A stretch of DNA of 64,000 nucleotides. Source: a virus. Made by a program: the position numbers and the translations under genes. The first letter of the stretch is position 1; the number at the start of each line of letters is the position of its first letter. The stretch covers positions 45,753-109,752 of IMG/VR virus record IMGVR_UViG_3300045303_000152; one strand, written 5' to 3'. The notes below the pieces were generated by a model. The model saw only the letters and a program-made list of their open reading frames with translations. It searched no databases and had not been told where the DNA came from. Positions 25,025 to 63,193 of the stretch are shown piece by piece.

Positions 25025-25282
25025 ATGTCAAGATACCTTTACCCTCGTGAAGAGCGAGGCACTAACGTCGAGCTACCAGCTACTCTCGCTCAATGGAGGG
25101 CTAATGTCGCCTATCGCTGCAAGCTGTGTGACACGGTAGTATGGACCAACACGAAGATCGAGCCGGTCGACGTACCCATCACGCGGGTTGAGCTGTTCAA
25201 TTTCAAGATCGTGAAGCCTGCAGAACCTACTAATTCATGGAGCTTGCAGCGATGCGTATCAACTGGACTGAAAAGTCAGTAG
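25025..25282 (+). CDS. Small ORFan with CxxC, 85 aa
   Basis: Contains YRCKLCDTVVW, half of a zinc ribbon, followed by a beta-rich part. It overlaps the start of the next gene by ~31 bp. Not recognised. Confidence 0.5.
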   Translation: MSRYLYPREERGTNVELPATLAQWRANVAYRCKLCDTVVWTNTKIEPVDVPITRVELFNFKIVKPAEPTNSWSLQRCVSTGLKSQ

Positions 25283-25887
25283 AGTATTTGAACCGGCACA
25301 ATAAGCAGGGCGACGATAACTTTGCCCTGTTCGCTAAGCAGCAGATCAGAGCTCAGAAGCGCCTCGACGACATAGCACGGGTTGTCGATGAGTGGAGGCC
25401 AACTCGCTCGCTCGACATCGGGTGCGGGCTGGGCGTGATTGATATCCTACTTGCCGATCGCTATGATCTGGCTCACATTCACTTGCTCGACGGCGACGGC
25501 AGCAGCCCTATTCAGCACGACTATCAGTCTGACATGCAGCCGTGGAATGACGTGTTTGCGGCAGCCGAGCTTGTGCAGAAAAACGTGGGTAAGGAAGTAT
25601 CGGTCTACCCTCATTTGGTAGTGTCAGCGGGTGAGTCCATGGCTTCGATGGCCAAGGAGATTGGCTGGCTCGACATGGTGTGTAGCTTCAAGTCGTGGGG
25701 CGTCCACTATCCCGTCAGCACCTACCTGCAATTCGTGCACGAGGTTTTGCGCCCTGGGGGTTTGCTGGTCATCGACATTCGCGAGGAGCGTGGCGATGGT
25801 GACAAGAACAACCAAGTCGAGCAGGCTGGCTTTCGGCTCGTGAAGCAGTTGGACGCGCGAGTTCGCACGTTCAGGAGAGGCATATGA
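25252..25887 (+). CDS. Class I SAM methyltransferase-like protein B
   Basis: 211 residues. Motif I SLDIGCGLG (~53-61), strand 2 HLLDGDG, motif IV region DMVCSFKSWGVHYP and strand 5 GGLLVIDIREE. Paralog of the 24376 protein. The start at 25252 follows a CATGGAGCTTGCAGCG leader. The stop overlaps the start of the GT-B-like gene (ATGA), so methyltransferase and transferase are co-translated, as expected for enzymes acting on one product. Confidence 0.68.
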   Translation: MRINWTEKSVEYLNRHNKQGDDNFALFAKQQIRAQKRLDDIARVVDEWRPTRSLDIGCGLGVIDILLADRYDLAHIHLLDGDGSSPIQHDYQSDMQPWNDVFAAAELVQKNVGKEVSVYPHLVVSAGESMASMAKEIGWLDMVCSFKSWGVHYPVSTYLQFVHEVLRPGGLLVIDIREERGDGDKNNQVEQAGFRLVKQLDARVRTFRRGI

Positions 25888-26774
25888 AAGTCGGCTTCTT
25901 TTGCTCAAAGCGCCCTCGCTGCATTGAGTTCGCAGAGCTGTTTCGATTTGGCGTGCAGCGGTGCGGCGACGAGTTAGCTATCAGACCGGTGCTGAAAGCT
26001 CATGGCGATCCTCATGAGGTTGATGGGGAAATAGTACCTGATGTGGATGTAGCGATCATCAATGCAATCCTGCACCGCAAAGCTTTCAAGACCATGTACG
26101 ATGCCGGCATTCCAGTTGTGTACATCGACAAGGCTTATAATCGGAATTGGGACTGGCGGCGTGTCAGCATTGGCGCGCACCAGCCAACGCACTACCTAGG
26201 CTTTAGAGGCAAGCGTGATGGACGCCGAGTACAGTTCGGGTGGGAACCTGCAACGTGGCGCCGCAAAGGTTCGCACGTGTTGCTAGCGTGGTCAGATAAC
26301 CGCGATCATGAGTGGCGCGGCTGGCCCCCGCCGGAAGTTCATGTCAGACCTGTCATTATCGGCTTGCAGCATTTCACCGACCGCAAACTCTACTATGGCG
26401 CCAAGCCGAACTATCATCCAAGTGCTTCAATCACTAGCCTACTCGACATTCGCAATCTAACCCCTGATGCACAAATCTCTGATTACTTTACGGGTTGTCA
26501 TGCGTTGGTAACTCCCGGTACCAGTGTGTGCTTGCAGGCTATGTTGGTAGGTATTCCTACCATCGTGCTCGCTGATGCCATAGTGCGCAGCATATCCTCT
26601 ACATGCATTTGCCAGATCGAAAGCCCGTACCTAGCAACCCAACATGAGCGCATTCAGCTACTCAATGATCTTGCTTACTGTCAGTGGCATAAGGGGGAGT
26701 TTGCCGATGGCACAGCTTGGTTCGATATTCGTGACCAGTTAGAGGAAGGGGTAGGAGTCAATGTCAAATCGTAG
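25884..26774 (+). CDS. GT-B-like glycosyltransferase paralog 1
   Basis: 296 residues. N-terminal Rossmann-like half; VVYIDKAYNR near residues 79-88 corresponds to MLFDKGYVR and LLIDDGYIN in its paralogs at 28244 and 60554. C-terminal half has HALVTPGTSVCLQAMLVGIP, resembling the nucleotide-sugar site of GT-B enzymes. It ends with the family motif LAYCQWHKGEFADG. Sugar donor and acceptor unknown. Part of the modification island with methyltransferases A and B. Confidence 0.6.
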   Translation: MKVGFFCSKRPRCIEFAELFRFGVQRCGDELAIRPVLKAHGDPHEVDGEIVPDVDVAIINAILHRKAFKTMYDAGIPVVYIDKAYNRNWDWRRVSIGAHQPTHYLGFRGKRDGRRVQFGWEPATWRRKGSHVLLAWSDNRDHEWRGWPPPEVHVRPVIIGLQHFTDRKLYYGAKPNYHPSASITSLLDIRNLTPDAQISDYFTGCHALVTPGTSVCLQAMLVGIPTIVLADAIVRSISSTCICQIESPYLATQHERIQLLNDLAYCQWHKGEFADGTAWFDIRDQLEEGVGVNVKS

Positions 26775-27036
26775 CGGCGCCTACTTGCTGTCAGAAACCT
26801 ATAACTTGCAAGCTGCAAGCGAGGGTATGTTGGTAGTGCCGAAGCTCAGGCGACGGCAGCCTAAGCAGACGATGCTGCCTAAAGATCCGCCATTGGTTAG
26901 GCAGTTTCGCTGGACTACCCCCGAAAGCGTGCTGGCTCGTATCAAGGAACTCGCGAGCCAGCCGCTCCGTACAGCACCAACTGGGTTTGCGCTCAACTAC
27001 AAAAGGCGCGACCAATGCCAAAGGGTGATCCCATGA
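26761..27036 (+). CDS. ORFan, 91 aa
   Basis: A basic, Pro/Arg-rich small protein, not recognised. It overlaps the end of the GT-B-like gene and the start region of the next gene. Confidence 0.5.
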   Translation: MSNRSGAYLLSETYNLQAASEGMLVVPKLRRRQPKQTMLPKDPPLVRQFRWTTPESVLARIKELASQPLRTAPTGFALNYKRRDQCQRVIP

Positions 27037-27209
27037 AGTACATTCTGATTTGGTATATCTTACAAGCGAGTGGGTCAGCTATCGCATCAGGTGGCATGAC
27101 TTCTGGCTCAGCCGAGTTCAACGATCAAAAGAGCTGCGAGCTTGCGGCCGAGCAAATCAAGTCGTGGAATGACAAGGCCAAAACTGCGTGCATGGAAAAG
27201 GGTGAGTAA
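27033..27209 (+). CDS. Small exported-like protein, 58 aa
   Basis: A hydrophobic N-terminus (MKYILIWYILQASGSAIAS) that may be a signal peptide, then a small helical domain with two Cys. The start at 27033 has AAGGG upstream. Not recognised. Confidence 0.5.
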   Translation: MKYILIWYILQASGSAIASGGMTSGSAEFNDQKSCELAAEQIKSWNDKAKTACMEKGE

Positions 27210-27220
27210 GGAGTGGGGTG

Positions 27221-27448
27221 ATGAATACCAAGTTTGTGAAGCATCTGAAAGTAGGGGATCGCGTTCGGGTACAAGACCCTGAAGGCGTAGGCAAGGTGAC
27301 ATACGTTGGACGTTCTATAATGTTCACGGCGTCGGGCGGGTGCTTTAGAATAGATGCTGACTTGGTAGCCGGCCCAAATGCCGGCAAATCGGTGTGGGAT
27401 CAGCACCTGCCCGGCGATGCTGAAATCGAAGTCTACCCAGTTCACTAG
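27221..27448 (+). CDS. SH3/KOW-like small protein, 75 aa
   Basis: The pattern LKVGDRVRVQDPEGVGKVTYVG is typical of small SH3/KOW barrels. AAGGAG leader. Role unknown. Confidence 0.55.
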   Translation: MNTKFVKHLKVGDRVRVQDPEGVGKVTYVGRSIMFTASGGCFRIDADLVAGPNAGKSVWDQHLPGDAEIEVYPVH

Positions 27449-27459
27449 GAGTAACGAAC

Positions 27460-27555
27460 ATGATGACGTATGCGCAAGGTTGGATCATCATCGGTGAGCT
27501 TGCCTTTGTCATCTTTCTAATCATTTACAACATTGGTATCGGAGGCCCACAATGA
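27460..27555 (+). CDS. 31-aa membrane peptide
   Basis: MMTYAQGWIIIGELAFVIFL followed by IIYN: one transmembrane helix. TAGGAG leader and ATGA overlap with the oxygenase gene. Confidence 0.45.
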   Translation: MMTYAQGWIIIGELAFVIFLIIYNIGIGGPQ

Positions 27556-28247
27556 TTACGGTAACGCAAACCGAGCTCTATGCTCATGTGTGCAGTGGGG
27601 TTCATGGGGCGAAGTTGTCGACCTACCCATTCACGCACATCAGCATGAGGAACTTCCTGCCGCAGTTTCTGTACGGGCGGCTTATCAATTCACTGCCGGC
27701 GCCTGAGCTCTATACCCCGTTGAGCGATACTCGCGCGCAATTCGTATTCACGCCCGAGAACCAAGCGAAGCTGCCGGCCGATACGGTCGGAGTTTGGATG
27801 GACCTGCTCAAAGTGTTCAATGAGATTGGGTTCAAACAGACCATGTTCAACAAGCTGGCCAGCGGGTTGAAGCATCGCTTTGGCGATAAGACCCTCGACG
27901 ACATCGACTGCGACATGGATATCAGGTTGATGCGTGACACGGCTGGCTATGGCATTCTGCCTCACTGCGATACCATGAAGAAGATAATCACGATGCAAAT
28001 CTACCTGCCGGCCACCGATCGCTATATGGATAGCGGTACGGTCATGTACAAGAAAGACGTAGTCGCTGATGGTGAGGAATACGTTGAGGTAGTGCGCTTT
28101 CCCTTCATACCGAATTTCAGCTATGCATTCGTCGTCAACAATAAGGAGCCTCACCAAAGCTGGCACGGGGTAGAAACTCTGCCACCTGATTTCCCCGGCG
28201 CGCGCAACAGTCTGCTTGTGATGTTCAATGCTGTAGGTGGTAAATGA
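27552..28247 (+). CDS. 2OG-Fe(II) oxygenase-like protein
   Basis: 231 residues. H138-C-D140 fits the HxD iron ligands, H205 in WHGVE the distal iron ligand, and R218 (GARNSLLV) the 2-oxoglutarate-binding Arg: the prolyl-4-hydroxylase-type double-stranded beta helix. Such enzymes hydroxylate proteins, small molecules or nucleobases. It overlaps both neighbours by 4 bp and is directly followed by a GT-B-like gene, so hydroxylation followed by glycosylation of one substrate is an attractive inference. Confidence 0.75.
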   Translation: MITVTQTELYAHVCSGVHGAKLSTYPFTHISMRNFLPQFLYGRLINSLPAPELYTPLSDTRAQFVFTPENQAKLPADTVGVWMDLLKVFNEIGFKQTMFNKLASGLKHRFGDKTLDDIDCDMDIRLMRDTAGYGILPHCDTMKKIITMQIYLPATDRYMDSGTVMYKKDVVADGEEYVEVVRFPFIPNFSYAFVVNNKEPHQSWHGVETLPPDFPGARNSLLVMFNAVGGK

Positions 28248-29116
28248 AATTCGCCTATCATCTGCGAGGCGAACGCCCTCGACAGAAGCAACTGTGTACT
28301 GCATTGCAAGCCGGCGCTGCCAAGCATGGGGATGAGGTAATCCCCATCGTTGGCTACCTAGGCCCAGAACCTAACGTCGATGGCGTGATACTGCTAGGCG
28401 TCAGCGGCCTTCACCACAGAATAAGCAACCGCATGGTGTACGATGCTTATCTCGCCAAGGGTAAGCGAACGATGCTGTTCGACAAGGGCTATGTGCGGAA
28501 GGACAGTAGCGACCGCGACTACTTGCGGGTGTGCGTCGATGGGTTCCAGCCACTCAGCTACTTCATGAACACAACCAGACCCAATGACAGATTTAAGCAG
28601 TTGGGTATCAAGCTAAGGCCCTACGCCACCAAAGGCGACTACTTCTTGCTGGATGGTGTCAGTCAGAAGTACTGCGCTTGGCATGGCATCGACAGTCACC
28701 TTGCCTGGGGCTTGAGCGTAATTGAGAAGATCAGGGCACACAGCAACCGCCCCATCGTTTACCGGCTTAAGAAGTCAGCGGCGAACTACAAGGCTCTGCG
28801 CGACATGCTGCGTACGACCATATCGAAGCGTGATCTGGCTGACGATATGAAACGCGCCATGATCGTCATCAGCCACGGCGGCAATCTGGGTTGGGATGCC
28901 ATGATGAATGGTCGCGCTCACTTTGCTATCGGCCCGAGCATTGCTAGAAGGGTAAGCGAAACCGACTGGGATAAAATTCACACGCCGTATGTACCTAGTG
29001 AGGCAGAGCGCTATCAGTTGATGTGCAATGTTGCGTACTGTCAATGGACCGTGGCCGAGCTAGCGAGCGGTGAGGGATGGGCAGTCATCAACCAGCAGTT
29101 AGAGGAAACCAAATGA
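28244..29116 (+). CDS. GT-B-like glycosyltransferase paralog 2
   Basis: 290 residues. Family boxes: TMLFDKGYVRKDSSDRDYLR (about 78-97), DGFQPLSYFMNT, MIVISHGGNLGWDAMMNG (C-terminal nucleotide-sugar-type motif) and VAYCQWTVAELASG at the end. Related throughout to the 25884 and 60554 proteins. Coupled to the 2OG oxygenase upstream and the MazG-like gene downstream by ATGA overlaps. Confidence 0.6.
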   Translation: MKFAYHLRGERPRQKQLCTALQAGAAKHGDEVIPIVGYLGPEPNVDGVILLGVSGLHHRISNRMVYDAYLAKGKRTMLFDKGYVRKDSSDRDYLRVCVDGFQPLSYFMNTTRPNDRFKQLGIKLRPYATKGDYFLLDGVSQKYCAWHGIDSHLAWGLSVIEKIRAHSNRPIVYRLKKSAANYKALRDMLRTTISKRDLADDMKRAMIVISHGGNLGWDAMMNGRAHFAIGPSIARRVSETDWDKIHTPYVPSEAERYQLMCNVAYCQWTVAELASGEGWAVINQQLEETK

Positions 29117-33470: not shown

Positions 33471-34328
33471 ATGATAGAACTGCCCCCAAAAAACGTTGCA
33501 GCCCTATGCAAGTTCGTGATCGAGCGGCAGCGTATCTACACTCGTCGGCTTGCCGGCAAGTCGAAGCCTTGGACCGACGACCCGATATTGCGGCAATATA
33601 GGTTCTGCAACATTTACCGTGAGCAGGATAAGGTCACTAAGTGGATCGCCTACAACTGGCGCAATCCGAACAACATGCACACAGACTTGTGGTTTGCCAT
33701 GTTGGTCGCCCGCTACATCAACGAGCCCGGTACACTCAAGTTGCTACCGTTTCCCTTGCCTTGGAACCGGCTCAACTTTCACGATGCCGTGAGTGCTCGC
33801 AAGAAGGCTGGGCTGACGGTATACAATGCGGCTTACATCATTTCGACGGGCGGGCAATCTGTACCCAAGCACGAGTACCTGGGCAACTTCTTTGATAAGT
33901 TTTGGTGGATGCGAAAGCAAATTCGCCCACGCGAAGGCGATACCCTGGCCAATTTCAGCGAGCGGCTGGTGGCGGTGCAGGGCATGGGCAAGTTCTTTAG
34001 CGGGCAGATCATCGCTGACGTAAAGTATGCTGAAGGCAGTACCTTGCGCAAAGCCGACGATTGGTGGACATTTGCTGTGTCAGGCCCCGGCTCGAGACGC
34101 GGCCTCAATCGGGTTTGCAACAACCCCGTCGATCAGGGTTGGAATGAGGGAGATTGGCATGCGCACCTCAGTACGCTACGTCGTGCGGTCAATAAGGAGA
34201 TCACAACGAAGGGTTTGGAGAAGCTGCATGCACAGGATCTACAAAATTCGCTATGTGAGTTTGACAAGTATCTGCGAGTCCAAAAAGGTGAAGGCCGCCC
34301 TAAGCAAAAGTACGATGGTATGGCGTAG
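33471..34328 (+). CDS. Alpha-glutamyl/putrescinyl thymine pyrophosphorylase-like enzyme
   Basis: 285 residues. LRQYRFCNIYREQDKVTKW (about 35-53) is the hallmark N-terminal segment of the helical DNA-glycosylase-fold family described with 5-hmdU DNA kinases. Later parts (AYIISTGG near 118-125, VQGMGKFFSGQIIADVKY) match the helix-hairpin-helix-like core. In phages with hypermodified thymine (phiW-14, SP10, ViI, M6 types) these enzymes replace the pyrophosphate on 5-(PPO-methyl)dU in DNA with an amino compound. A thymidylate-synthase homolog, GT-A enzyme and HD hydrolase lie within 4 kb. A P-loop 5-hmdU kinase was not found in the window. Family assignment is by motif recall. Confidence 0.72.
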   Translation: MIELPPKNVAALCKFVIERQRIYTRRLAGKSKPWTDDPILRQYRFCNIYREQDKVTKWIAYNWRNPNNMHTDLWFAMLVARYINEPGTLKLLPFPLPWNRLNFHDAVSARKKAGLTVYNAAYIISTGGQSVPKHEYLGNFFDKFWWMRKQIRPREGDTLANFSERLVAVQGMGKFFSGQIIADVKYAEGSTLRKADDWWTFAVSGPGSRRGLNRVCNNPVDQGWNEGDWHAHLSTLRRAVNKEITTKGLEKLHAQDLQNSLCEFDKYLRVQKGEGRPKQKYDGMA

Positions 34329-34416
34329 CTTTTCGATTGAGGATCGGACATGCGCCATCGGCGCGGTGTTCTGGCTGTGGTGTTCGATCGGCTACTTGGC
34401 TGGTCAAGTGGGGTAG
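34315..34416 (+). CDS. 33-aa membrane micro-protein (tentative)
   Basis: MVWRSFSIEDRTCAIGAVFW then LWCSIGYLAG, one hydrophobic helix. It overlaps the end of the previous gene and stops 1 bp before the next start. The ribosome binding site is weak, so it is tentative. Confidence 0.35.
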   Translation: MVWRSFSIEDRTCAIGAVFWLWCSIGYLAGQVG

Positions 34417-34417
34417 A

Positions 34418-35278
34418 ATGGACCTGATCGTAATACCTACTTGGGGGCGGGCGAAGCGGCAGCAAACTTTGGCTGCCCTCGAGAAAACAGATGTTGTGTA
34501 TACCCACAAAGTAGTTCTACTTGTGCGGCCTGAGGAAGTGGCAAAGTACCGTCACCCAAGCTATAAAGGCAAACGCATTAAGTCAGCGACTATGAAAGAG
34601 ATTGACGTGGTGGCAGTGCCAGAAAACTGCGAAGGTATAAGTAAGAAGCGAGCCTATGCCTTGACCACGCTGGCAAAGCAGTACGACGCCAAGTATCTAA
34701 TGATGCTCGATGATGACCTGTCATTCTGTCATCGGCCTGATTTGCGTAAGGCAGATATGCCCTATATCAACGCTGACTCTTACGGCATGCACTGGATGAT
34801 CGAAACTATCACCGAGCAATTAGAAAAAGGGTATGCTCATGTCGGGTTGATTTCTAGGCAGGCCAACCGCAAGCTAGGTGTTAGGTGGCAGAAACCCGGT
34901 CGATTGATGAATGCCTATGCCTACAATGTGCCAATAATTTCTCAGCTAATACGCAAGCACAAATTAGTGCTAGGTCGCTTGCAGTTCATGGAAGACTTTG
35001 ATTTGACGTTACAGCTATTGCGCCTTGGTTATCCCAATCGCATCAGTTGCCAATTCGCCTGGACCACAACATCGAACCTAAATGGAGGTTGTAGCAGCTA
35101 TCGTACCGCAGAAGCACAAGCTGAAGCCGCGCGCAAGCTGGCCAAGCTGCACAAGCCTTTTGTGCAAACGGTAGAAAAGCAGGCCAAGACCTGGAAGAAT
35201 TCGTTGACTACCCGCGTCGATGTGCGGGTAGCGTGGAAGAAAGCCTATGAGGCTAGTAAGGGAGGTAAACGTGGCTGA
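34418..35278 (+). CDS. TET-associated-type GT-A glycosyltransferase
   Basis: 286 residues. N-terminal nucleotide-sugar fold DLIVIPTWGRAKRQQTL, then VVAVPENCEGISKKRAYAL, and the metal-binding LMMLDDDLSF with D98-D100. This pattern resembles the GT-A family associated with TET/JBP and thymine-hypermodification loci in phages (TAGT). It would add a sugar to a modified base. The gene lies directly after the pyrophosphorylase-like gene, supporting a DNA substrate. The C-terminal ~60 residues are basic. Confidence 0.65.
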   Translation: MDLIVIPTWGRAKRQQTLAALEKTDVVYTHKVVLLVRPEEVAKYRHPSYKGKRIKSATMKEIDVVAVPENCEGISKKRAYALTTLAKQYDAKYLMMLDDDLSFCHRPDLRKADMPYINADSYGMHWMIETITEQLEKGYAHVGLISRQANRKLGVRWQKPGRLMNAYAYNVPIISQLIRKHKLVLGRLQFMEDFDLTLQLLRLGYPNRISCQFAWTTTSNLNGGCSSYRTAEAQAEAARKLAKLHKPFVQTVEKQAKTWKNSLTTRVDVRVAWKKAYEASKGGKRG

Positions 35279-35444
35279 TACTTCTAAGGAACCCACCCTA
35301 AAGGACTTCACCTTGGGGGAGCTGATGGTACTGCACAACCAACAGCTAATTGCGCTGGCGCTGGCTAAGCTTTTGGCAGATCAAAACTTATTAGGAACGG
35401 CAGGTGCGCTTAGAGCTGGAATACAAACTGCACCAAGCAAGTAG
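35271..35444 (+). CDS. Small paralog with LHNQQ box (1 of 3), GTG start
   Basis: 57 residues. GGGAGG precedes the GTG at 35271. MVLHNQQLIALALAKLLAD is shared with the next gene (AILHNQQLLMLGVARLLVE). Helical; function unknown. Confidence 0.55.
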   Translation: MADTSKEPTLKDFTLGELMVLHNQQLIALALAKLLADQNLLGTAGALRAGIQTAPSK

Positions 35445-35455
35445 GGTATAAACCA

Positions 35456-35656
35456 ATGGCAGATACAAAGGACTTTTCGCCGGCTGAGCAGGCGATACTA
35501 CACAATCAGCAACTTCTCATGCTAGGAGTGGCTAGGCTTTTGGTAGAGGTGGACTGCAACTTACTGGCAGCTAAAATCCAAAGAGAGTTCATAACCGCGC
35601 CAGATTTTGTGGCGCTGGACGATACAGCTCGAGAGTTCGCGTTAAAGGGAGACTAG
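35456..35656 (+). CDS. Small paralog with LHNQQ and ALD boxes (2 of 3)
   Basis: 66 residues. The N-terminal LHNQQ box is shared with the upstream protein and the C-terminal FVALDDTAREFAL with the downstream one (FAALDEAAQEFAL). It is a middle link in a chain of partially duplicated small genes. Confidence 0.6.
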   Translation: MADTKDFSPAEQAILHNQQLLMLGVARLLVEVDCNLLAAKIQREFITAPDFVALDDTAREFALKGD

Positions 35657-35658
35657 CA

Positions 35659-35895
35659 ATGAGCTTGAAGGATGATCTCATAAAACTGCGCGACCAGCTA
35701 GCCACAGATTATCATCATTGTACCGGCTTGCGCACTATAGCTGCTGATGATCTCGTGCAAACATTAGGTGAGGTGGCGGCAGATATGCTGCCCGAGTTTG
35801 CTGCACTCGATGAAGCAGCGCAAGAGTTCGCATTGAATGAGGCGTGTCCAGAAGGCACCATTATAAGTTGTAGCCCCGTTCGCCTAGTAGAGTAA
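35659..35895 (+). CDS. Small paralog with ALD box (3 of 3)
   Basis: 78 residues, helical. Shares FAALDEAAQEFAL with the preceding protein. AAGGGAG leader. Function unknown. Confidence 0.55.
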   Translation: MSLKDDLIKLRDQLATDYHHCTGLRTIAADDLVQTLGEVAADMLPEFAALDEAAQEFALNEACPEGTIISCSPVRLVE

Positions 35896-35916
35896 CCAGT
35901 AACCGGAGTACCCCAA

Positions 35917-36576
35917 ATGAAGCACGCTGATATCTATGGAAATGCTAGGTTAGCCGGCAGCGTTAAGAGATACCACGCCCAACCCTATTTGACGACGCAA
36001 ACCGTGGGCGAGCACACGTGGCAAATCTTTCGCATTTACACAACCATTTGGGGTGAAATTCCGCCCCATGTGACGACGGCGATTATCTGGCACGATGCCG
36101 GCGAGCTGTTCGCGGGCGATACTCCCTACCCAGCCAAAAAGGCTTCGCCGGGGTTGCGTGGGTTGCTCAAAACTTTGGAAATTGATGGCATCGAGCAAAT
36201 GGGTGGGCCGTGGAACCCCGACGGCAAGCTCACGACCCTTGAGCAAATCAAGATCAAGATTTGCGATAACCTCGACATGCTTGAGCACGGCTTGGTCGAA
36301 ATGGCGATGGGCAATCGCCTTATGGAGCCTGTCACCAACGTGACTTATGCGTGGCTCATTGAAACCCTCGACTGGGATAATGATGCGATACCTCACCTCG
36401 ATAAAGACTATGCCATTCGTTACCTGCTCAAAGTCCGTAAAGCGGCGCGAACGTATGGTATACCCAACGAGGTTTTCATCATCGAGAAAAATATACCCCT
36501 CGCTGCTCAGTTGACCAAGCTGGCCGCAGTAACCCAACCGCCAGGAACCCCCGTAGTTTTACCAGTCAACATCTAG
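35917..36576 (+). CDS. HD-domain (YfbR-like) nucleotide phosphohydrolase
   Basis: 219 residues. GEHTWQI (~34), WHDAGELFAGDTP (~61-73, the HD pair) and CDNLDMLEHG (~118-127) supply the metal ligands of HD phosphohydrolases of the YfbR/5'-deoxynucleotidase class. It probably dephosphorylates dNMPs or dNTPs. Next to a TS/5-hmdUMP synthase homolog, it may remove the canonical nucleotide so that the modified one is incorporated, as known for phages with substituted bases. That role is inference. Confidence 0.75.
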   Translation: MKHADIYGNARLAGSVKRYHAQPYLTTQTVGEHTWQIFRIYTTIWGEIPPHVTTAIIWHDAGELFAGDTPYPAKKASPGLRGLLKTLEIDGIEQMGGPWNPDGKLTTLEQIKIKICDNLDMLEHGLVEMAMGNRLMEPVTNVTYAWLIETLDWDNDAIPHLDKDYAIRYLLKVRKAARTYGIPNEVFIIEKNIPLAAQLTKLAAVTQPPGTPVVLPVNI

Positions 36577-36608
36577 CACGCATCAACCCATTCAATGGAG
36601 CATAGACA

Positions 36609-37112
36609 GTGGATATCATCAAGGCAACGGGTGGCCACCCAAATCAATGGACGTATAGAGACGCACCCGGCTTGATATGGATAAACACGGTCGCTCTTAA
36701 ATACGAGGGCAATGCTTGTCTTAAATGGCCGTACAGCATGGTTAAGGGAGGGTACGGGCAGCTAACTGTGAATGGTAAGTGTTGGAAAGCTAATAGATTT
36801 TTATGCATCTTAGCCTATGGAGAACCCCCGACTAACAAACATCAAGCAGCGCATACGTGCAAAACCAAGGGATGTATGACCAAGAAACATTTAGGTTGGA
36901 AAACTCCAGCCCAAAACCAGCGTGATCGAATTAAAGATGGTACTGATAGTAAGGGAGTACGCAATGGTAGAGCCAAACTAACTTTGCGCAACGTAAAGGA
37001 GATTAGACAAGCTAAGGGCAAAGTATCGCAAAATCGGCTTGCGGTACTTTTTGGCATTCACCAGACGACAGTAAGTAAAATACAGCGCAACCAACTTTGG
37101 CAAGGAGGGTAG
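36609..37112 (+). CDS. HNH homing endonuclease with HTH tail
   Basis: 167 residues, GTG start after CAATGGAG. Core AAHTCKTKGCMTKKHLGW with downstream NQRDR is the HNH ββα-metal pattern. C-terminal NRLAVLFGIHQTTVSKIQR is a helix-turn-helix for site recognition. Typical free-standing phage HNH, sitting immediately upstream of the TS homolog, a favourite homing-endonuclease neighbour. AT-richer than the flanks. Confidence 0.8.
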   Translation: MDIIKATGGHPNQWTYRDAPGLIWINTVALKYEGNACLKWPYSMVKGGYGQLTVNGKCWKANRFLCILAYGEPPTNKHQAAHTCKTKGCMTKKHLGWKTPAQNQRDRIKDGTDSKGVRNGRAKLTLRNVKEIRQAKGKVSQNRLAVLFGIHQTTVSKIQRNQLWQGG

Positions 37113-37117
37113 TACCT

Positions 37118-38248
37118 ATGGATGTAATAAGAAGTACCAATGTTAATGAGGCGTATCTCAAAGGGTTGCACCTAATTGCAACCAAAGGCGTGCTCGAGAA
37201 ATCGCGCGCCGGCGACGTACTGGTAGTCCCCAATCCGGTCGTCACGCAATACAATTACCCAATGGAGCGGGTGCTGTTCGACGTGACCCGTGATGCTAAC
37301 CCCTGGTTTCATTTGATGGAAGCATTGTGGATGTTGATGGGCCGCAACGATGCCACATGGCTGGACCGCTTCGTCAAGGACTACTCGAAGCGGTTCGCTG
37401 AGGATGATGGTACCCAGTGGGGTGCCTATGGCCAGCGGTGGCGCAGTCACTTTCTTTCGACCAGCATGGAGTCATATGAGGAAGGCCCTATTGACCCGCT
37501 ATTTGACCAACTGTCGGAGGTGGTCAGGTTATTGCACAAGAACCCCAACGACCGGCGCGTGGTGCTACAGATGTGGGACCCCGAGTACGACCTGGGCAAA
37601 AACACGAAGGATGTACCGTGCAACCTTTGCGTGCTGCCGCGCGTGGTGAACAAAAAGCTCGACATCACCGTCTTCTGTCGCAGCAACGATGCCATCTGGG
37701 GTGCGTACGGCAGCAACGCCGTTCACTTCAGCATTTTGCAGGAATATCTTGCCGCGCGGTTGGGTGTAGGAATAGGCACGTATTACCAGATTAGCAACAA
37801 CTTTCACGCTTATAAGAACGTGTTCGAGGCTAAGACCAAGCACCTGATTATCGACCCTGCTGGACCAACCGGGCCGGCGCCCACGCCGATAGGTAAGAGT
37901 GAGTTCGTGGTGGCGCCTGCTTGGTACAGGCCAGCTGATACGTTGCAATGCCCCTACTACTTCCACACGGCGAAGCCAACGCCCATCGTGACTGCCGGCG
38001 ACACGTTCGACGATGACTTGATCCAGTTCTTCAGCGGCGATCACCCGCCGATCAAGTACTATCACAACAGCTTTTTCTCTGAGATCGCCATACCGATGTA
38101 CTACAGCTTCAAGGCGTGGCGAGATAAGGATTTGACTGGCGCCTTGCAGTGGCTTACGCGCATGCCTGAGCCAAATGGCGATTGGCGCCTTGCATGTCAA
38201 CAGTGGTATGATCGGCGCCGTTATGCTGGAACTAAGGTTCAAAGTTGA
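37118..38248 (+). CDS. Thymidylate synthase / 5-hydroxymethyl-dUMP synthase homolog
   Basis: 376 residues. The catalytic Cys is in DVPCNLCVLPRV (~165). CRSNDAIWGAYGSNAVHFS retains the Asn that selects dUMP rather than dCMP, and YYQISNNFHAYKN completes the active site. The WGAYGSNAVHF wording and extra length resemble dUMP hydroxymethylases of hmU-containing phages more than host ThyA, as far as I recall. It would supply hmdUMP (or dTMP) for the phage pool. An AAGGAGGG leader gives the start. The stop lies within a GGTTCAA palindrome. Confidence 0.8.
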   Translation: MDVIRSTNVNEAYLKGLHLIATKGVLEKSRAGDVLVVPNPVVTQYNYPMERVLFDVTRDANPWFHLMEALWMLMGRNDATWLDRFVKDYSKRFAEDDGTQWGAYGQRWRSHFLSTSMESYEEGPIDPLFDQLSEVVRLLHKNPNDRRVVLQMWDPEYDLGKNTKDVPCNLCVLPRVVNKKLDITVFCRSNDAIWGAYGSNAVHFSILQEYLAARLGVGIGTYYQISNNFHAYKNVFEAKTKHLIIDPAGPTGPAPTPIGKSEFVVAPAWYRPADTLQCPYYFHTAKPTPIVTAGDTFDDDLIQFFSGDHPPIKYYHNSFFSEIAIPMYYSFKAWRDKDLTGALQWLTRMPEPNGDWRLACQQWYDRRRYAGTKVQS

Positions 38249-38251
38249 ACC
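38236..38251. promoter_or_regulatory. Palindrome GGTTCAA-AG-TTGAACC at TS stop
   Basis: A member of the GTTCAA-NN-TTGAAC family overlapping the TS stop codon. Followed 300 bp later by another copy at 38562. Confidence 0.5.
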
Positions 38252-38588: not shown

Positions 38589-38933
38589 ATGATAACCAGA
38601 AGAAAGCTGCTTTACTGGCTCGGCCTAGCGCCGGCTGCTTCAGTTCTGCCAGTCGACAAGTTCGGCTCGGCTAACGTGCTGTTCGATGGACCAACTGAGA
38701 ATATTGGCAAAACTATCCAATACGTTCAATACGTCGACCCTACTAAGTGGACTATACCTGAGGATTGGAATAAGGTTTACATTGAGTGCGTAGGTTACGG
38801 GGGTGGAAATGGTGGCGGTGGGGGTAATGCAACGAGAATGGAAATACGGCGTGGGTCAGGCGAAAGCACCACGACTGGTATTGGCGGTGCAGGTAGAAAG
38901 TTAGCTAAGGGAGAACCCGATGTCAGCGAATGA
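38589..38933 (+). CDS. Gly-rich exported-like protein, 114 aa
   Basis: The N-terminus MITRRKLLYWLGLAPAASVL has a twin-Arg plus hydrophobic stretch. DPTKWTIPEDWNKVYIECVG followed by GGGNGGGGGN resembles Gly-rich phage adhesin or tail-fibre segments. It overlaps the next gene by 14 bp. Function unknown. Confidence 0.5.
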   Translation: MITRRKLLYWLGLAPAASVLPVDKFGSANVLFDGPTENIGKTIQYVQYVDPTKWTIPEDWNKVYIECVGYGGGNGGGGGNATRMEIRRGSGESTTTGIGGAGRKLAKGEPDVSE

Positions 38934-39393
38934 TAGGCAGGTAGGTGGGAGCCACTACAAAGGCAGTTACGAGCATTGGGATTTTGTGACCAACGTTGGT
39001 ATGTCTTATTTACCAGCGCAAGTTTGCAAGTACCTGAAGCGCTGGCGTGACAAGAACGGCCGTGAGGACGTCGAAAAGGCTGGGCACTTCCTCGACAAAA
39101 TGATTGAGGTGGCACCTATTCTAATTTTGCAAAGGCCAAATATTCCCGCTGACTACATCAATAGTGAGGTTGATAGCTACTTGCACGCCAATGGCATTAA
39201 AGGTGAAGAAGCGGCCATCACTTCTATACTTGCGCATTGGTCTACCAAAAGCCATCTGCAAATGGCCAAGTGCTACATCGAGACCTTGGTAATGAAGATA
39301 CCCCAAGGGCACGCTACCATTAAGCTTGGTGGAGGCGGCGGCCACGCTTCACGGCCCGACAGCGATGAGAGCGTACATGGAAATAGATCGTGA
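38920..39393 (+). CDS. DUF3310 family protein
   Basis: 157 residues. QVGGSHYKGSYEHWDFV and QVCKYLKRWRDKNGREDVEK match DUF3310, common in tailed phages and sometimes annotated as nucleotide-kinase-like without proof. The C-terminal half (residues ~70-157) is an unusual extension. Confidence 0.8.
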   Translation: MSANDRQVGGSHYKGSYEHWDFVTNVGMSYLPAQVCKYLKRWRDKNGREDVEKAGHFLDKMIEVAPILILQRPNIPADYINSEVDSYLHANGIKGEEAAITSILAHWSTKSHLQMAKCYIETLVMKIPQGHATIKLGGGGGHASRPDSDESVHGNRS

Positions 39394-39871
39394 GGCATTG
39401 CTGGCGGCAATGACCTACAACAAAAAGTCTGGTATTTGCCGCTGGCGAACCACTCGTAAAGGAGTGGAGAAAGTTAATCAAGTGGCTGGCTATGTCGATA
39501 AGCAAGGTAAGCGCTGGATACGATTTAGCAATGGTAGGTATAGATCTACTCATCTTATTTGGTTTTACGTGACTGGTACTTGGCCTCCAGTACTTGTCGA
39601 TCATGAGGATCTAAACGTGTCAAACGATAAATGGAGAAACTTACGTTTAGCAACCCATGCGCAAAACCATTGTAACCTAAGAAAGAGTAAGCGTAACACC
39701 TCGGGTTACAAAGGGGTATCCTTTTGTAAGAAGAAAAATAAGTTTGAGGTACGTATCAATTTTGAGGGGAAATGCCACCGCCTGGGTTATTACAAAACTG
39801 CTAGGCTAGGTCACGCCGTTTACAAGAAAGCTTCGCAACGTTATCATGGTGCGTATGGGAGGATAAGCTAA
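39377..39871 (+). CDS. HNH homing endonuclease with AP2-like domain
   Basis: 164 residues. HNH part: LVDHEDLNVSNDKWRNLRLA then NHCNLRK. The AP2-like DNA-binding tail is GYKGVSFCKKKNKFEVRI and YYKTARLGHAVY. Its N-terminus MEIDREALLAAM resembles MDIDREQLLIAV of the sliding clamp that starts at its stop codon. AT-richer middle. It overlaps the DUF3310 gene by 17 bp. Confidence 0.75.
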   Translation: MEIDREALLAAMTYNKKSGICRWRTTRKGVEKVNQVAGYVDKQGKRWIRFSNGRYRSTHLIWFYVTGTWPPVLVDHEDLNVSNDKWRNLRLATHAQNHCNLRKSKRNTSGYKGVSFCKKKNKFEVRINFEGKCHRLGYYKTARLGHAVYKKASQRYHGAYGRIS

Positions 39872-41436: not shown

Positions 41437-42015
41437 ATGCCCATCAATCGACGCGGCGTGCATATCAACTGGCATGGTAAGTACCTCAATGAAGAGGAAA
41501 TTGCGGCTGACATGATAGCAAAGATCAGAGCCAACCCTGAGGGCGTCAAGGTTTGGCTTGATCCCATTAGTTGGGAACTGCCTTATAGCGACTATAAGGT
41601 ACTGCCTCCGCATGCTGGCGCCTTGATGAACGTCGGTATGCAAGTTCGGAATTACTATGGGCTTTGGCATCCTGAATGCCCGTATACCAAAACCGGCGGG
41701 GCTGATTTAGAAGTTAAGGATGGTATCATCACCGACCCAATGTTCCCTGACAACCTATCAATGCGCATAATTGACCGGGTGCGCAAGGTATTCGCGGATG
41801 AGGCCAAGCAATCGAAAGAGTTGCACATTGCCGATAGTCACCCCCAACGATCAGGCTTTGCTTGGTGCGGCGAAACATTGCTAGATAGCAGTAAGCGAAC
41901 CTTTCGCAACGTTGAGGAAGCTGCTCAAATCGGCCGTAGTGGTATGGATAGTTTCATTGTTTGCACTCGTTGCCTTGAACGGGTTACAGCAGCGCTACGT
42001 CACGGGCACAAGTAA
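41437..42015 (+). CDS. ORFan with CxxC, 192 aa
   Basis: Not recognised. C-terminal CTRC and earlier WC and EC residues suggest a metal site. It lies directly before the polymerase with a one-base overlap (TAATG), so co-translation is likely. Confidence 0.55.
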   Translation: MPINRRGVHINWHGKYLNEEEIAADMIAKIRANPEGVKVWLDPISWELPYSDYKVLPPHAGALMNVGMQVRNYYGLWHPECPYTKTGGADLEVKDGIITDPMFPDNLSMRIIDRVRKVFADEAKQSKELHIADSHPQRSGFAWCGETLLDSSKRTFRNVEEAAQIGRSGMDSFIVCTRCLERVTAALRHGHK

Positions 42016-44696
42016 TGAGCTTCTTTCCTATACCTGAAAAGGTAAGCAAACAAACAGCGGCTAAAGCCGACATTAAGATGCTCCATACCCTGGAGTGTCA
42101 AGCCTGCCCGTTGTCGCAGATCAAGGGTAACAAACACCCTGACATGCCGGCAACGGGCGTCAGTAACCCGATGGTATATGCATTGGGCGAGGCCCCCGGC
42201 AAGGATGAGGATATACGCGGCCGGCAGTTCGTAGGCAAAAGCGGCCAACTGCTTAGAGACTTGCTCATTGACATTATAGGCACCGATTACAAAAACTACT
42301 TTCGTTGGAACAACACTGTTCGCACCCGACCGATTGACAATGCCACACCAACTTGGCAGAGCATCGAGTGCTGCCGGCCTAGCATCGTAAGGGATATCGA
42401 ACAAAGCAAGCCGAAGGCTATATTTGGATTTGGCAACATACCGCTATCGTGGCTCACGGGGTATTCTGGTATCTATGCCTATCGCGGTCGCTGCATGCCC
42501 GTTAAAGTAGGCACGCACGTTTGCTGGTACTTCCCCATGCTGCATCCAGCGGCGATACTGCATGGCGTCAAAGGCTATGACCCCGACGACGATGACGATG
42601 GCAGCGATTACAATCAATCCGATCGCGAGTTCATCAATGAGGACCATCGCATACTCAAGTTCGATCTCATTAAAGCCCTGGCGTTGCTCGACAAGCTCGG
42701 GCCACCTATGATCCATTCAGCTGACGATGCCTTGAGCGGCATTGATGTGATGGATAAGTGTGACGATCAAGCCCTCGATGTCATTGAAGAACAGTTGAAG
42801 CTGTACGGCTCAAAGGTAGTAATCGGCATCGACTATGAGACCGACGCACTGCGACCGTACAATCCCGACCGGCGAATACTAACCGCCGCCGTCAGCGATG
42901 GGCTCGGTGCGATCACCATTCCATTCGATCACCCTGAAGCGAGCTGGACCCCCAAGCAGCGTGAACGCCTCGACCGCATTTGGATCAACTTCCTCACCAC
43001 GGCCACAGCTATCAAAGCGGTACACAACCTGCAATTCGAGCTGGAGTGGACTGGCCATCGGTTCGCCGGCGACTTGCTCAAAGCCGGTAGGTGGGAATGT
43101 ACGATGGTTCAAGCGTCGATCATCGACCATCGCTATAAGGGCACCAAGCCGAGCCCACTGTCGTTAGAGTTTCTGGTGCTGCAACACTTCGGCTTCAACC
43201 TGAAGAAGCTCGCAGCCGTCGAGCGGCACAACCTGATAAACACGCCGTTGCCTCACGTGCTCCAATACAATGGATTGGATGCCAAGTATCATGCGTTGCT
43301 GTTCAAGCGTCAGCACTCGATTATAAGGAATGAGAACCTACTCGTTGCCTACAAGCTCGCCAGCCGCCGCGTGCCCACGTTGGTTATGAGCCAGCTCAAA
43401 GGTATTCCTGTATCACAGAAGCAAGTCGAGGTGCTGCACGCCAAGTACGCAGATCGTATAGAAACAACCTCAAAGCAGATCGCCGTCAACCGCACCGTCA
43501 AGCGGTTCAAGAAAGAGTACAAATTCGACTTCGACCCCGGCAAGCATTGCGTGAAGCTGTTTCACGACATGCTGCAACGTAAGGAGTGCGAGGTATTCGA
43601 CAAGAAGAAACGTGATGCCAAAACTTGGTGGGTGGGTGATAAGAAAGTCAACAAGATAAGCTGCGATGAAGATGTGCTCAAGCAAATTGGCGGCGAGCTG
43701 CCAGAGCTAATCATTCGCTTGCGTAAGGCACAAAAGCGCATGGGTACTTACATTCTACCCATGCGTGAGGGCAGCGGAATACTTTGGCCCGGTAGCTATC
43801 TCCATCCGGTTTACAATCATACCTTCACCGATACCGGCCGGCTGAGCGCTGAAGAGCCCAACGTTCAAAACTACCCCAAGCGTGATGGCGAGGCCAAGGA
43901 GGTTCGCAAGGGCATCGTCGCTCGCAAAGGCCGTGTGATTGTCGCCATCGACTACGGGCAAATAGAAGCTCGCGTCATCGCCATGTACACGAAGGATAAA
44001 ACCTTCGTCAAAGCGTTGTGGGAAGACTACGACGTTCATATGGAGTGGGCCGAGCGCGTAGCCTATGCGATGCCAGGGCTAGTCGGCGGCAAGCAGTACC
44101 TTAAAGACAAACCCACGATGAAAAAGTTTCGCACGGGCATCAAAAACGAATGGACATTCCCACTGTTTTTCGGGGCCACGCTTGAGTCCGTTTGCACCTA
44201 CCTGACCGAAGGCAACGATCACGACTGCAAGGTAGAGCCCGGTCAACTCAAAAAGGTTCATGCCGATTTCTGGAAGCAGTTCGGCGGCGTGAAGGAATGG
44301 CAGGAGACCCTGCGCGACTTTTATGAGGAGCATGGGTATGTAGAAACCTTCACCGGCCGGCGCCGTCACGGGCCTATGAGCTTCAACAAGCTAATCAATG
44401 CACCCGTGCAAGGGTTCACTGCCGAGCTAGTGATGGACGGTATGTGTAGGTTAAGCGAAACAAATGACCCGCTGCTGCCCCCTGAAATTCAAATCCACGA
44501 TGACTTGACGTGGGTAAGCGTGCCCGAAAACAGGGTGGATGAATTGGCTGACAAGGCGCTAGATGTGCTGCTCAACCCGCCCGCGCCGTTCATCGAGCAT
44601 GTCAACGTACCGATCACAATGGAGCTTAGCGTAGGCAAGAACTGGCTGGAAATGACCGACATAGGCGTGTTCAAATCAAACGAGTGGAAGCAATGA
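42015..44696 (+). CDS. polA: Family 4 uracil-DNA glycosylase fused to family A DNA polymerase
   Basis: 893 residues. N-terminal UDG4 domain: FeS-type C28 and C31 plus later Cys, GEAPGKDEDIRGRQFVGKSG (58-77) and MLHPAAIL. Then a 3'-5' exonuclease with IGIDYETDAL (~270). Polymerase motif A is VAIDYGQIEAR (~643), motif B KKFRTGIKNEWTFPLFFG (~703), and motif C QIHDDLT (~827, HDD where Pol I has HDE). This is the replicative polymerase. UDG-Pol fusions are known from hmU-containing phages such as SPO1; there the domain may be structural. Overlaps the clamp-loader start. Confidence 0.9.
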   Translation: MSFFPIPEKVSKQTAAKADIKMLHTLECQACPLSQIKGNKHPDMPATGVSNPMVYALGEAPGKDEDIRGRQFVGKSGQLLRDLLIDIIGTDYKNYFRWNNTVRTRPIDNATPTWQSIECCRPSIVRDIEQSKPKAIFGFGNIPLSWLTGYSGIYAYRGRCMPVKVGTHVCWYFPMLHPAAILHGVKGYDPDDDDDGSDYNQSDREFINEDHRILKFDLIKALALLDKLGPPMIHSADDALSGIDVMDKCDDQALDVIEEQLKLYGSKVVIGIDYETDALRPYNPDRRILTAAVSDGLGAITIPFDHPEASWTPKQRERLDRIWINFLTTATAIKAVHNLQFELEWTGHRFAGDLLKAGRWECTMVQASIIDHRYKGTKPSPLSLEFLVLQHFGFNLKKLAAVERHNLINTPLPHVLQYNGLDAKYHALLFKRQHSIIRNENLLVAYKLASRRVPTLVMSQLKGIPVSQKQVEVLHAKYADRIETTSKQIAVNRTVKRFKKEYKFDFDPGKHCVKLFHDMLQRKECEVFDKKKRDAKTWWVGDKKVNKISCDEDVLKQIGGELPELIIRLRKAQKRMGTYILPMREGSGILWPGSYLHPVYNHTFTDTGRLSAEEPNVQNYPKRDGEAKEVRKGIVARKGRVIVAIDYGQIEARVIAMYTKDKTFVKALWEDYDVHMEWAERVAYAMPGLVGGKQYLKDKPTMKKFRTGIKNEWTFPLFFGATLESVCTYLTEGNDHDCKVEPGQLKKVHADFWKQFGGVKEWQETLRDFYEEHGYVETFTGRRRHGPMSFNKLINAPVQGFTAELVMDGMCRLSETNDPLLPPEIQIHDDLTWVSVPENRVDELADKALDVLLNPPAPFIEHVNVPITMELSVGKNWLEMTDIGVFKSNEWKQ

Positions 44697-60553: not shown

Positions 60554-62080
60554 ATGCGCGTTGTAATTTACAGACCTACCAAGTCAGAGCATGACGCGGC
60601 GCTCGCTGACGCTTTGCTTACCGGGTTCGAGGCTAATGGCGACAAGGTATTTCTGAAGAAGTCAGTCGAGTTTAGCGGGATTGACGAATGGACCCAAATG
60701 ATCGTGCTTATTGGGCTCAACGACAAGTCGCTATATACCCAGCATATCAGAGCCGGCAAGAGCGTGCTGCTGATTGATGACGGCTACATCAACCCGCAGA
60801 AGTACTATCGGTTCGCCCTAGATGGGTTTCAGTCATGGTTTCTGCACAACAAGCCAATGGCGCATGGCCGGCTGGCAACTATATTGAAGGAAGCAGAGCT
60901 AACCATGCTACCTTTCGAAGAACGCCAGCAACCGCTCGGGCTGTACGTCGGCAACCCTGAAGCCTATTGCAGATGGCATGAGCTGACCGACGATAAGGAC
61001 GACAAGCATTCCTTCGACAGCAATATGTGCCGGCACATCGCCGTCAGGATAATCCCACAGGTTTGGGGCACGCCGACAGCGGCTTACCTACCAAATGCAA
61101 ACTTCAATGCTGCGCACCCAAAGTTCATGGATGGTCCCCGAGGCACCATTGTACTGCCCTCTGATACTCCTCTTAGCGAAGCGTTGCGGAATTGCTCCAT
61201 GCTGGTCGAGCACGGCGGAAACTTCGGCGTTGCCGCGCTTATTGCCGGCGTACCAGTTGTAGTTACAACGGCGGAAGGGATAAGTCCGGTGTACCCCATC
61301 GCTGGGCACGGCATTGAGGCAGTGCGATCACCCCCTAAAACTACGGATGCAGAGCGTGTGCAAGTACTGGCCAACCTAGCATGGCATCAGTTCACGTTGA
61401 ATGAGATTGCATCGGGCATGGCGTTGCAACACCTAACCCCGCACACGATTAAGCATTTGGAGGGCATGGTCAGCGATCCCAATAACCAAACCTATCTGAT
61501 TGCCCAATACAAGATGATGCACAACGCCGGCAAGTATCGTGGCGGGCTCAATGAGGAGATCATTGCCCACATCACCACGATGGTTGACGCTCACAAGCCG
61601 CAGAGCTTGCTCGACTATGGCAGCGGCAAGGGCAGGCAGTACCTCGAGAAAAAGCAGCACGAGCTATGGAACGGCCCCGAGCCAACATGCTATGACCCTG
61701 CACACGCGCCGTTCGCGACCAGACCCGAAGGGCAGTTCGACGGCGTGATCTGTACCGATGTGGCCGAGCATATTCCACCCGATGGCGTCGAGGCATTTCT
61801 CGACGACGTGTTGCAGTACGCTCGCAAGTTCGTGTTCTTTTGTATTTACACCGGGCCGGCGATCAAGTATTTACCCGACGGGCGCAACGTTCACCTCACG
61901 GTAAGAAAGCAAAAATGGTGGAACCAGCAAATCTTTGAGGCAATCTACCGACGTGAGCCGGCAAGCTTGACGCCGATAGCTGTTACCGTGCTCAGTGACA
62001 AGTCAATCCGAATGAAAAGCGACACCATCGAGATCACCACATTGTACCGAGGCGGGGAGCGAGATGAAAAAGCAGCTTAG
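60554..62080 (+). CDS. GT-B-like glycosyltransferase fused to SAM methyltransferase
   Basis: 508 residues. Residues 1-~310: third GT-B-like paralog, with LLIDDGYINPQKYYRFALDG, MLVEHGGNFGVAALIAGVP and LANLAWHQFTLNEIASG. Residues ~340-500: SAM methyltransferase SLLDYGSGKGRQYL, DGVICTDVAEHIPPDGVEAF. The fusion joins in one chain what is two adjacent genes at 25252/25884, strong evidence that transfer and methylation act on the same product. AAAGGAG leader. Confidence 0.68.
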   Translation: MRVVIYRPTKSEHDAALADALLTGFEANGDKVFLKKSVEFSGIDEWTQMIVLIGLNDKSLYTQHIRAGKSVLLIDDGYINPQKYYRFALDGFQSWFLHNKPMAHGRLATILKEAELTMLPFEERQQPLGLYVGNPEAYCRWHELTDDKDDKHSFDSNMCRHIAVRIIPQVWGTPTAAYLPNANFNAAHPKFMDGPRGTIVLPSDTPLSEALRNCSMLVEHGGNFGVAALIAGVPVVVTTAEGISPVYPIAGHGIEAVRSPPKTTDAERVQVLANLAWHQFTLNEIASGMALQHLTPHTIKHLEGMVSDPNNQTYLIAQYKMMHNAGKYRGGLNEEIIAHITTMVDAHKPQSLLDYGSGKGRQYLEKKQHELWNGPEPTCYDPAHAPFATRPEGQFDGVICTDVAEHIPPDGVEAFLDDVLQYARKFVFFCIYTGPAIKYLPDGRNVHLTVRKQKWWNQQIFEAIYRREPASLTPIAVTVLSDKSIRMKSDTIEITTLYRGGERDEKAA

Positions 62081-62921: not shown

Positions 62922-62923
62922 GC

Positions 62924-63184: not shown

Positions 63185-63193
63185 GAGTGGAAT

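Follow-up and report, generated by a model that had tools for sequence, protein, structure and literature searches.

Predicted Glycosylation of 5-Hydroxymethyluracil in an Uncultivated Phage by a Glycosyltransferase Encoded beside a Kinase-Associated Helical Protein

The Gene Cluster

The stretch of DNA analyzed here, termed the window, is 64,000 nucleotides long and covers bases 45,753 to 109,752 of the 109,752-bp IMG/VR virus record IMGVR_UViG_3300045303_000152. The completeness of the record is unknown, and all of it was scanned. Four genes on the plus strand of the window encode a helical protein of family PF18723 (denoted HEL), a glycosyltransferase of family PF20691 (denoted TAGT), a predicted HD-domain nucleotidase, and a thymidylate synthase (TS) homolog. 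Judging from sequence, this cluster probably equips the phage genome with glycosylated 5-hydroxymethyluracil, a base-J-like thymine, and the enzyme to which HEL would present the base is a glycosyltransferase and not a kinase; the probability of this reading is put at roughly 0.57. The original prediction, made from the letters alone, had named the same four genes, and all are present, including the motif WGAYGSNAVHF in the TS homolog.

At the DNA level, the cluster matches a phage collection in short patches and nothing longer. Near-identical clusters are found on two IMG/VR contigs, with HEL and the glycosyltransferase at 95–96% identity. One of these sister contigs, L009, keeps all four pathway genes at 88–96% identity, with dN/dS values of 0.10, 0.12, 0.12, and 0.17 for the HEL, TAGT, HD, and TS genes. 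HEL and TAGT are adjacent on the same strand, each with a dN/dS of about 0.1. The four genes are confirmed at the coordinates given below and are under purifying selection, far beyond chance.

HEL (33471–34328, 285 amino acids) matches PF18723, HMUDK_hel, over its full length (profile positions 6–277 of 281, E 1.4e-43) and phrog_2396 (E 8e-53), and is a homolog of gp55 of phage M6 at 33% identity. The family was formerly named aGPT-Pplase1 and is now the “5-hmdU DNA kinase, helical domain”, where 5-hmdU is 5-hydroxymethyldeoxyuridine. Its GenBank homologs still carry the label “alpha-glutamyl/putrescinyl thymine pyrophosphorylase clade 1”. The earlier description of this gene as a pyrophosphorylase thus holds as an old family name, and a profile search does place it in that family, under the current model HMUDK_hel. 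It does not hold as a function, since HEL falls outside PF18724, the family of amino acid:DNA transferases (ADDT), which has no match in the record, and is not an enzyme installing an amino acid or putrescine. The protein contains no P-loop.

The AlphaFold2 model of HEL is all-alpha, with a predicted local distance difference test score (pLDDT) of 96.1. A search of the HEL profile against PDB sequences gave nothing significant, and folds were compared instead. The best PDB matches include a DNA-3-methyladenine glycosylase, the ADDT-type 5-phosphomethyldeoxyuridine (5-PmdU) glycinyltransferase PUGT, and an 8-oxoguanine glycosylase. Among viral models, the HMUDK proteins of phiRSL1, phiW-14, and SP10 match strongly and the amino acid:DNA transferases less strongly. 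From these matches, a base-flipping helix-hairpin-helix (HhH) architecture is plausible. Nineteen residues are near-invariant (R19, D37, F45, N47, R50, D53, R81, A121, K133, F175, D183, D197, G205, P206, G207, G211, C262, E263, and K266) and are identical with a kinase or a glycosyltransferase partner; no residue separating the two types of HEL was found. HEL is fused to a kinase in locus L019 and in SP10, where the product is a 637-residue “5-hmdU DNA kinase”, and these fusions show it working jointly with a modifying enzyme.

PF18723 is also present in cellular-genome contigs of alphaproteobacteria, haloarchaea, DPANN archaea, and Patescibacteria (L131, L134, L136, L140–L142, L144, L151–L156, L163, and others), with no TS, kinase, or glycosyltransferase nearby. 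These proteins perhaps serve in defence or in mobile elements.

The glycosyltransferase gene (34418–35278, with an alternative TTG start at 34337) matches PF20691 at E 2e-14 (54.4 bits against a curated cut-off of 27.5) and phrog_842, “beta-glucosyl-HMC-alpha-glucosyltransferase”, at E 5e-37. Invariant residues are R11, the acidic metal-binding motif DDD at 98–100, and D193. Its model (pLDDT 92.7) has a GT-A fold and matches GT-A enzymes, such as TarP, SpsA, and GalNAc-T2, at a probability of 1.0. The TAGT profile gave nothing significant in a sequence search against the PDB, and a search of NCBIfam returned nothing useful for either HEL or the glycosyltransferase. The enzyme is proposed to be a 5-hmdU-DNA glycosyltransferase.

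The TS homolog (37118–38248) matches PF00303, Thymidylat_synt (E 5e-22), and phrog_5131 (E 1e-101). It is 39% identical to M6 gp58, and its closest enzymes are of the M6/YuA type. Cys168 is the nucleophile, and Asn200 corresponds to N177 of Escherichia coli ThyA. Within the TS family, Asn at this position specifies dUMP and Asp specifies dCMP. Asn occupies it in the window protein, in M6 gp58, and in every one of the 99 related TS sequences with this column filled. The cytidylate hydroxymethylase MilA aligns an Asp, and the known Asp179 of T4 gp42 falls beside the column in an alignment shifted by one residue. The ThyA Trp80 and His147 columns hold Ser and Asn, and M6 gp58 lacks both residues as well; with the alignment near W80 uncertain, these losses are in line with a hydroxymethylase. 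The protein is predicted to be an M6-type, uracil-specific dUMP hydroxymethylase (5-hmdUMP synthase). The M6-type enzyme and its dUMP-specific Asn support the earlier view of a locus that modifies thymine, with a glycosyl step in addition.

The HD gene (35917–36576) encodes a predicted YfbR-like 5′-deoxynucleotidase (PF12917, E 6e-6). Its homologs include M6 gp59 and the HD proteins of R11 and ctUhy936.

Search for a 5-hmdU Kinase

M6 encodes its P-loop 5-hmdU kinase, gp54 (PF18748, E 8e-18), just before gp55, and its ADDT is gp51 (PF18724, E 1e-46). Such a kinase had been expected elsewhere in the genome of the window phage. PF18748 has no match in the record, which may be incomplete, or in 16 related genomes and records. 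The same search finds the kinase in 14 of 14 kinase-type records (E 1e-4 to 1e-25), and is therefore sensitive enough. A tblastn search of M6 gp51–gp54, the kinase included, against the record returned nothing, and no pyridoxal phosphate or radical S-adenosylmethionine (SAM) tailoring enzymes were detected in it. Tet_JBP, alpha-GT (PF11440), and beta-GT (PF09198) also have no match in the record, in searches run without a positive control.

Walker A motifs in the record were considered as candidates for the kinase and were rejected, as no small nucleotide kinase is among the proteins found. The matches are a DNA polymerase (a false positive), DnaX/clamp-loader-like, RecA-like, and SbcC-like proteins, a DnaB-like helicase, an uncharacterized open reading frame (ORF) of 635 amino acids, and chance matches.

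Exchange of Partners beside HEL

An alignment of HEL retrieved 80 loci from viruses and 79 from genomes, and all six-frame ORFs at these loci were searched with profiles made for the kinase, TAGT, TS, HD, and ADDT. Partners within 3 kb were counted at 92 TS-linked HEL loci below 90% identity. Thirty carry only a kinase, 43 only a member of any of four glycosyltransferase-type groups, two carry both, and 17 neither (Fisher p 6e-10). TAGT, the best-supported of these groups, is found on its own count at 27 of 60 loci without a kinase and at 0 of 32 with one (p 1e-6). As a control, the HD gene was counted at 22 of 32 kinase loci and 23 of 60 others, with no exclusion and, if anything, an association. 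The original prediction of a kinase lying elsewhere is not supported by these relatives, where kinase and glycosyltransferase are alternatives. Because of this alternation, and because neither a kinase nor an ADDT is detected, the sugar is likelier to be the modification in its own right than to decorate a kinase and amino acid pathway, as first supposed.

When 90 HEL proteins are placed on a tree, the label must switch between kinase and glycosyltransferase 15 times, and branches with approximate likelihood ratio support (SH-aLRT) no lower than 95 force at least 5 of these switches. The sister proteins L065 (kinase) and L067 (TAGT), joined at SH-aLRT 99, are one case, and L072 (kinase), which groups with L075 and L089 (both TAGT) at SH-aLRT 98, is another. 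At kinase-type loci the kinase usually adjoins HEL, and in the window TAGT occupies that place. The same HEL protein seems, from these sequences, to have exchanged a kinase for a glycosyltransferase partner several times across viruses.

The linkage also appears from the side of the glycosyltransferase. At 69 of 80 TAGT loci, HEL is encoded within 8 kb and without exception on the same strand; at 53 it is within 500 bp, and 67 of the 69 have TS as well. No PF18748 kinase is present at any of the 80. This sample was collected with a profile seeded from HEL-linked TAGTs, was not dereplicated, and partly overlaps the first, so it supports linkage and gives no frequency.

Many loci that have neither a kinase nor TAGT carry another enzyme in the partner place. 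One such group is a GT4-like glycosyltransferase whose profile hits PimA and other glycosyltransferase structures at E ~1e-4. Two more are GTB1, which is related to it, and GTB2, an unclassified group suspected to be GT-B. A radical SAM-SPASM protein takes this place at other loci. Such proteins lie within a few kb of HEL at L027, L053, L058, L026, L025, L043, L046, L064, L088, L113, and L122 and mostly accompany glycosyltransferase-type partners, which suggests that the modified base or the sugar undergoes additional chemistry. A family of about 320 amino acids with the motif QNDY...HSPANRFYE is in or near the partner position at L032 (8012–8992), L036, L039, L042, L045, L049, L059, and L064. 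It has no match in Pfam or the PDB and is possibly a new family of GT-B glycosyltransferases.

Taken more broadly, PF18723 may be, rather than a kinase domain, an exchangeable subunit that reads 5-hmdU and flips the base, and whose partner (kinase, TAGT, GT4-like enzyme, and possibly others) was repeatedly swapped. Such a subunit would support aminated or glycosylated thymine, and base-J-like DNA would be widespread in uncultivated phages. This generalization is tentative and falls somewhat short of even odds.

A Cultured Relative

The cultured REPRESENTATIVE, Brevibacterium phage LuckyBarnes, has a complete genome of 50,774 bp. Its genes gp38–gp41 encode TS, TAGT, TAGT, and HEL in that order and overlap one another (L263:4430-8445, NC_047851.1). 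Neither PF18748 nor PF18724 is found in the complete genome, so the missing kinase is not due to an incomplete contig. LuckyBarnes thus resembles the window in its compact operon of TS, TAGT, and HEL, and differs in having two TAGTs and no HD gene annotated in the stretch.

Its authors named the TS a dCMP-hydroxymethylase (PMC6588365). The protein has the dUMP-type Asn in an RSND...GIN motif, and since this residue and the neighboring HEL both point to uracil as the substrate, the annotation is probably wrong. LuckyBarnes makes the prediction of base-J-like thymine testable in culture.

Proposed Pathway

In the proposed pathway, dUMP would be converted to 5-hmdUMP by the TS homolog, as its family and specificity residue indicate, and the HD nucleotidase would deplete competing dTMP or another dNMP. 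Nucleotide kinases would supply 5-hmdUTP, which the phage DNA polymerase would then incorporate, a polymerization established for M6-type phages. HEL, which may be HhH glycosylase-like, would bind 5-hmdU in duplex DNA and present the base, as the helical module serves a P-loop kinase in M6, ViI, and SP10. The adjacent GT-A enzyme would move a sugar from a nucleotide-sugar onto the 5-hydroxymethyl group. The most economical reading is that HEL recognizes 5-hmdU and hands the base to the enzyme encoded beside it. The HD nucleotidase fits a need for low dTMP and may be compared with the dTTPase reported, together with a hydroxymethyluracil synthase, for phiW-14 (PMC5977210).

Several observations weigh against this pathway. 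With no end repeats, the record is possibly incomplete, and a distant kinase may lie beyond it. The enzymatic steps, the identity of the sugar, and the physical contact between HEL and the glycosyltransferase are all inferred, and no HEL–glycosyltransferase fusion was found among the loci examined. The partner counts are phylogenetically non-independent, and a strict independent-pairs test limited to starred branches yielded 6 supported pairs, too few to decide the matter. Of the four glycosyltransferase-type groups, GTB1 is assigned by its similarity to the GT4 group, and GTB2 is suspected to be GT-B without database support. At eleven of the 80 TAGT loci, five of which have TS, no HEL hit lies within 8 kb; some of these loci are truncated, but others have flanks of sufficient length. 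A TS-TAGT-HD stretch of ctUhy936, within about 2.7 kb of the end of its own record, likewise has no HEL hit. HEL may therefore be helpful and not essential. Among 350,542 chains, the HhH glycosylases and PUGT hold four of the five highest ranks, but their E values are weak at 0.4–1.6. Asp197 of HEL, aligned by eye as a glycosylase-type catalytic Asp, is weakened as a candidate by its absence from LuckyBarnes HEL.

Alternative Explanations

An alternative is that HEL is itself a transferase with an ADDT-like fold, working in series with the glycosyltransferase to activate the 5-hydroxymethyl group or to add a second group. PUGT and ADDT proteins are among its structural relatives, and a comparison with the ADDT profile gives a marginal match (E 0.003, probability 10%) that aligns a G-x-G and a C-terminal LC(E/K). 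The near-invariant residues, many of them polar or Gly, also resemble an active site. However, the kinase fused or adjacent to HEL in SP10, M6, and L019 already performs the activation, and the conserved residues stay the same despite the different partners. A catalytic HEL is accordingly unlikely.

About equally unlikely is the classic M6/ViI pathway, in which the kinase and ADDT would be encoded in genome sequence that the record lacks, and the glycosyltransferase would decorate some sites or the finished side chain. The possible incompleteness of the record would allow it. L011, with a HEL 50% identical, shows an ADDT-like match together with a P-loop protein at a distance of about 7 kb, though the P-loop protein fails to match PF18748. 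L042 and L057 hold both a kinase and a possible glycosyltransferase, against which TAGT and the kinase co-occur at none of the 92 loci. The complete LuckyBarnes genome and the position of TAGT in the place usual for the kinase argue further against this pathway.

A T-even-like system, with 5-hmdCMP made by the TS homolog and 5-hydroxymethylcytosine (hmC) glycosylated by TAGT, is improbable. PF20691 is best known from T-even and TET phages acting on hmC (PMC13216743, PMC13390438), and the LuckyBarnes annotation points the same way. Against this stand the Asn in place of Asp throughout the related TS sequences with the column filled, the adjacent helical protein of the 5-hmdU kinase, the lack of Tet_JBP, alpha-GT, or beta-GT matches in the searches without a positive control, and the closest TS enzymes, which are of M6/YuA type and come from phages with modified thymine (PMC6449724).

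A surface role, with the glycosyltransferase acting on the host or virion apart from DNA modification, is very improbable: the window does hold other glycosyltransferase- and methyltransferase-like genes (25252–29116 and 60554–63883), but TAGT is linked to HEL and TS at most TAGT loci, and the genes overlap in LuckyBarnes.

Relation to Known Systems

Base J is the beta-D-glucosyl-hydroxymethyluracil of kinetoplastids, and its synthesis starts from thymine in DNA through JBP dioxygenases. The window cluster would give the same class of end product, glycosylated 5-hydroxymethyluracil in DNA. Unlike in base J, the 5-hmdU would arise as a nucleotide through the TS homolog, and no Tet_JBP match was found in the uncontrolled search.

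Hypermodified thymine occurs in M6, ViI, and phiW-14, and the M6 kinase prefers TG and TC (PMC6449724). The M6/YuA-like phages share with the window homologs, in similar order, of HEL, TS, HD, DUF3310, and DNA polymerase, with 5-hmdU as the presumed intermediate. The M6 set comprises kinase gp54, helical gp55, TS gp58, HD gp59, and ADDT gp51. Unlike M6, the window has PF20691 beside HEL, and the kinase, ADDT, pyridoxal phosphate, and radical SAM enzymes are not detected.

A similar gene set has already been noted in HTVC023P-type pelagiphages, whose cluster holds TS, aG/PT-PPlase1, 5′-deoxynucleotidase, and beta-glucosyl-HMC-alpha-glucosyltransferase (PMC9599517). These are the same four kinds of gene, again near a DNA polymerase, and the authors suggest broadened thymidine hypermodification (PMC9599517). 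The parts of that account considered here report neither the absence of the kinase nor the alternation of kinase and glycosyltransferase beside HEL (PMC9599517). No statement of the alternation was found in a literature search that excludes Lee 2018, Lee 2022, Iyer 2013, and Wen 2024.

A 2026 study counted solitary TAGTs in 288 of 753 phage genomes and left their substrate open (PMC13216743). The window TAGT is of this solitary type, having PF20691 with no detected PF11440, PF09198, or Tet_JBP (again with no positive control), and its context points to 5-hmdU. This would be the likely DNA substrate of a group of orphan phage TAGT glycosyltransferases. The prediction of base-J-like thymine in many phages would bear on restriction, on defence by Brig1-type glycosylases, and on sequencing bias. 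It would also recast the kinase-named PF18723 family as a modular recognition subunit that could pair with different enzymes to place different marks on the same base.

Neighboring Genes

Three small ORFs lie between the glycosyltransferase and HD genes. Two of them are conserved in L009: one of 66 amino acids (35456–35656, plus strand, dN/dS 0.24) and one of 78 (35659–35895, plus strand, 96% identical, dN/dS 0.09). Between the HD and TS genes, directly upstream of the latter, is a plus-strand gene for an HNH endonuclease with a C-terminal helix-turn-helix (36609–37112), assigned by PHROG HNH endonuclease families. Segment 36623–37118 has no counterpart in L009, and the gene is therefore probably a mobile insertion outside the pathway. 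A second HNH-type gene (39326–39871) is named from sequence only, and segment 39411–39909 is missing from L009. The two genes flank the TS region and look like recent insertions of mobile endonucleases.

Downstream on the plus strand are a DUF3310 protein (38920–39393), syntenic with M6 gp61, and a family A DNA polymerase (42015–44696), a weak homolog of M6 gp62 that is expected to use 5-hmdUTP. The polymerase has an N-terminal domain of the uracil-DNA glycosylase superfamily (PF03167, E 5e-16), which is of note given the predicted use of a uracil derivative.

Methyltransferase-like and possibly GT-B-like genes are grouped at 25252–29116 and again at 60554–63883, and most of them have no family match. 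By eye, the genes at 25884–26774 and 28244–29116 and the N-terminal part of 60554–62080 are mutually similar. An FkbM methyltransferase is encoded at 63194–63883, and a 231-residue protein (27552–28247) may, by eye, be a 2-oxoglutarate/Fe(II) oxygenase.

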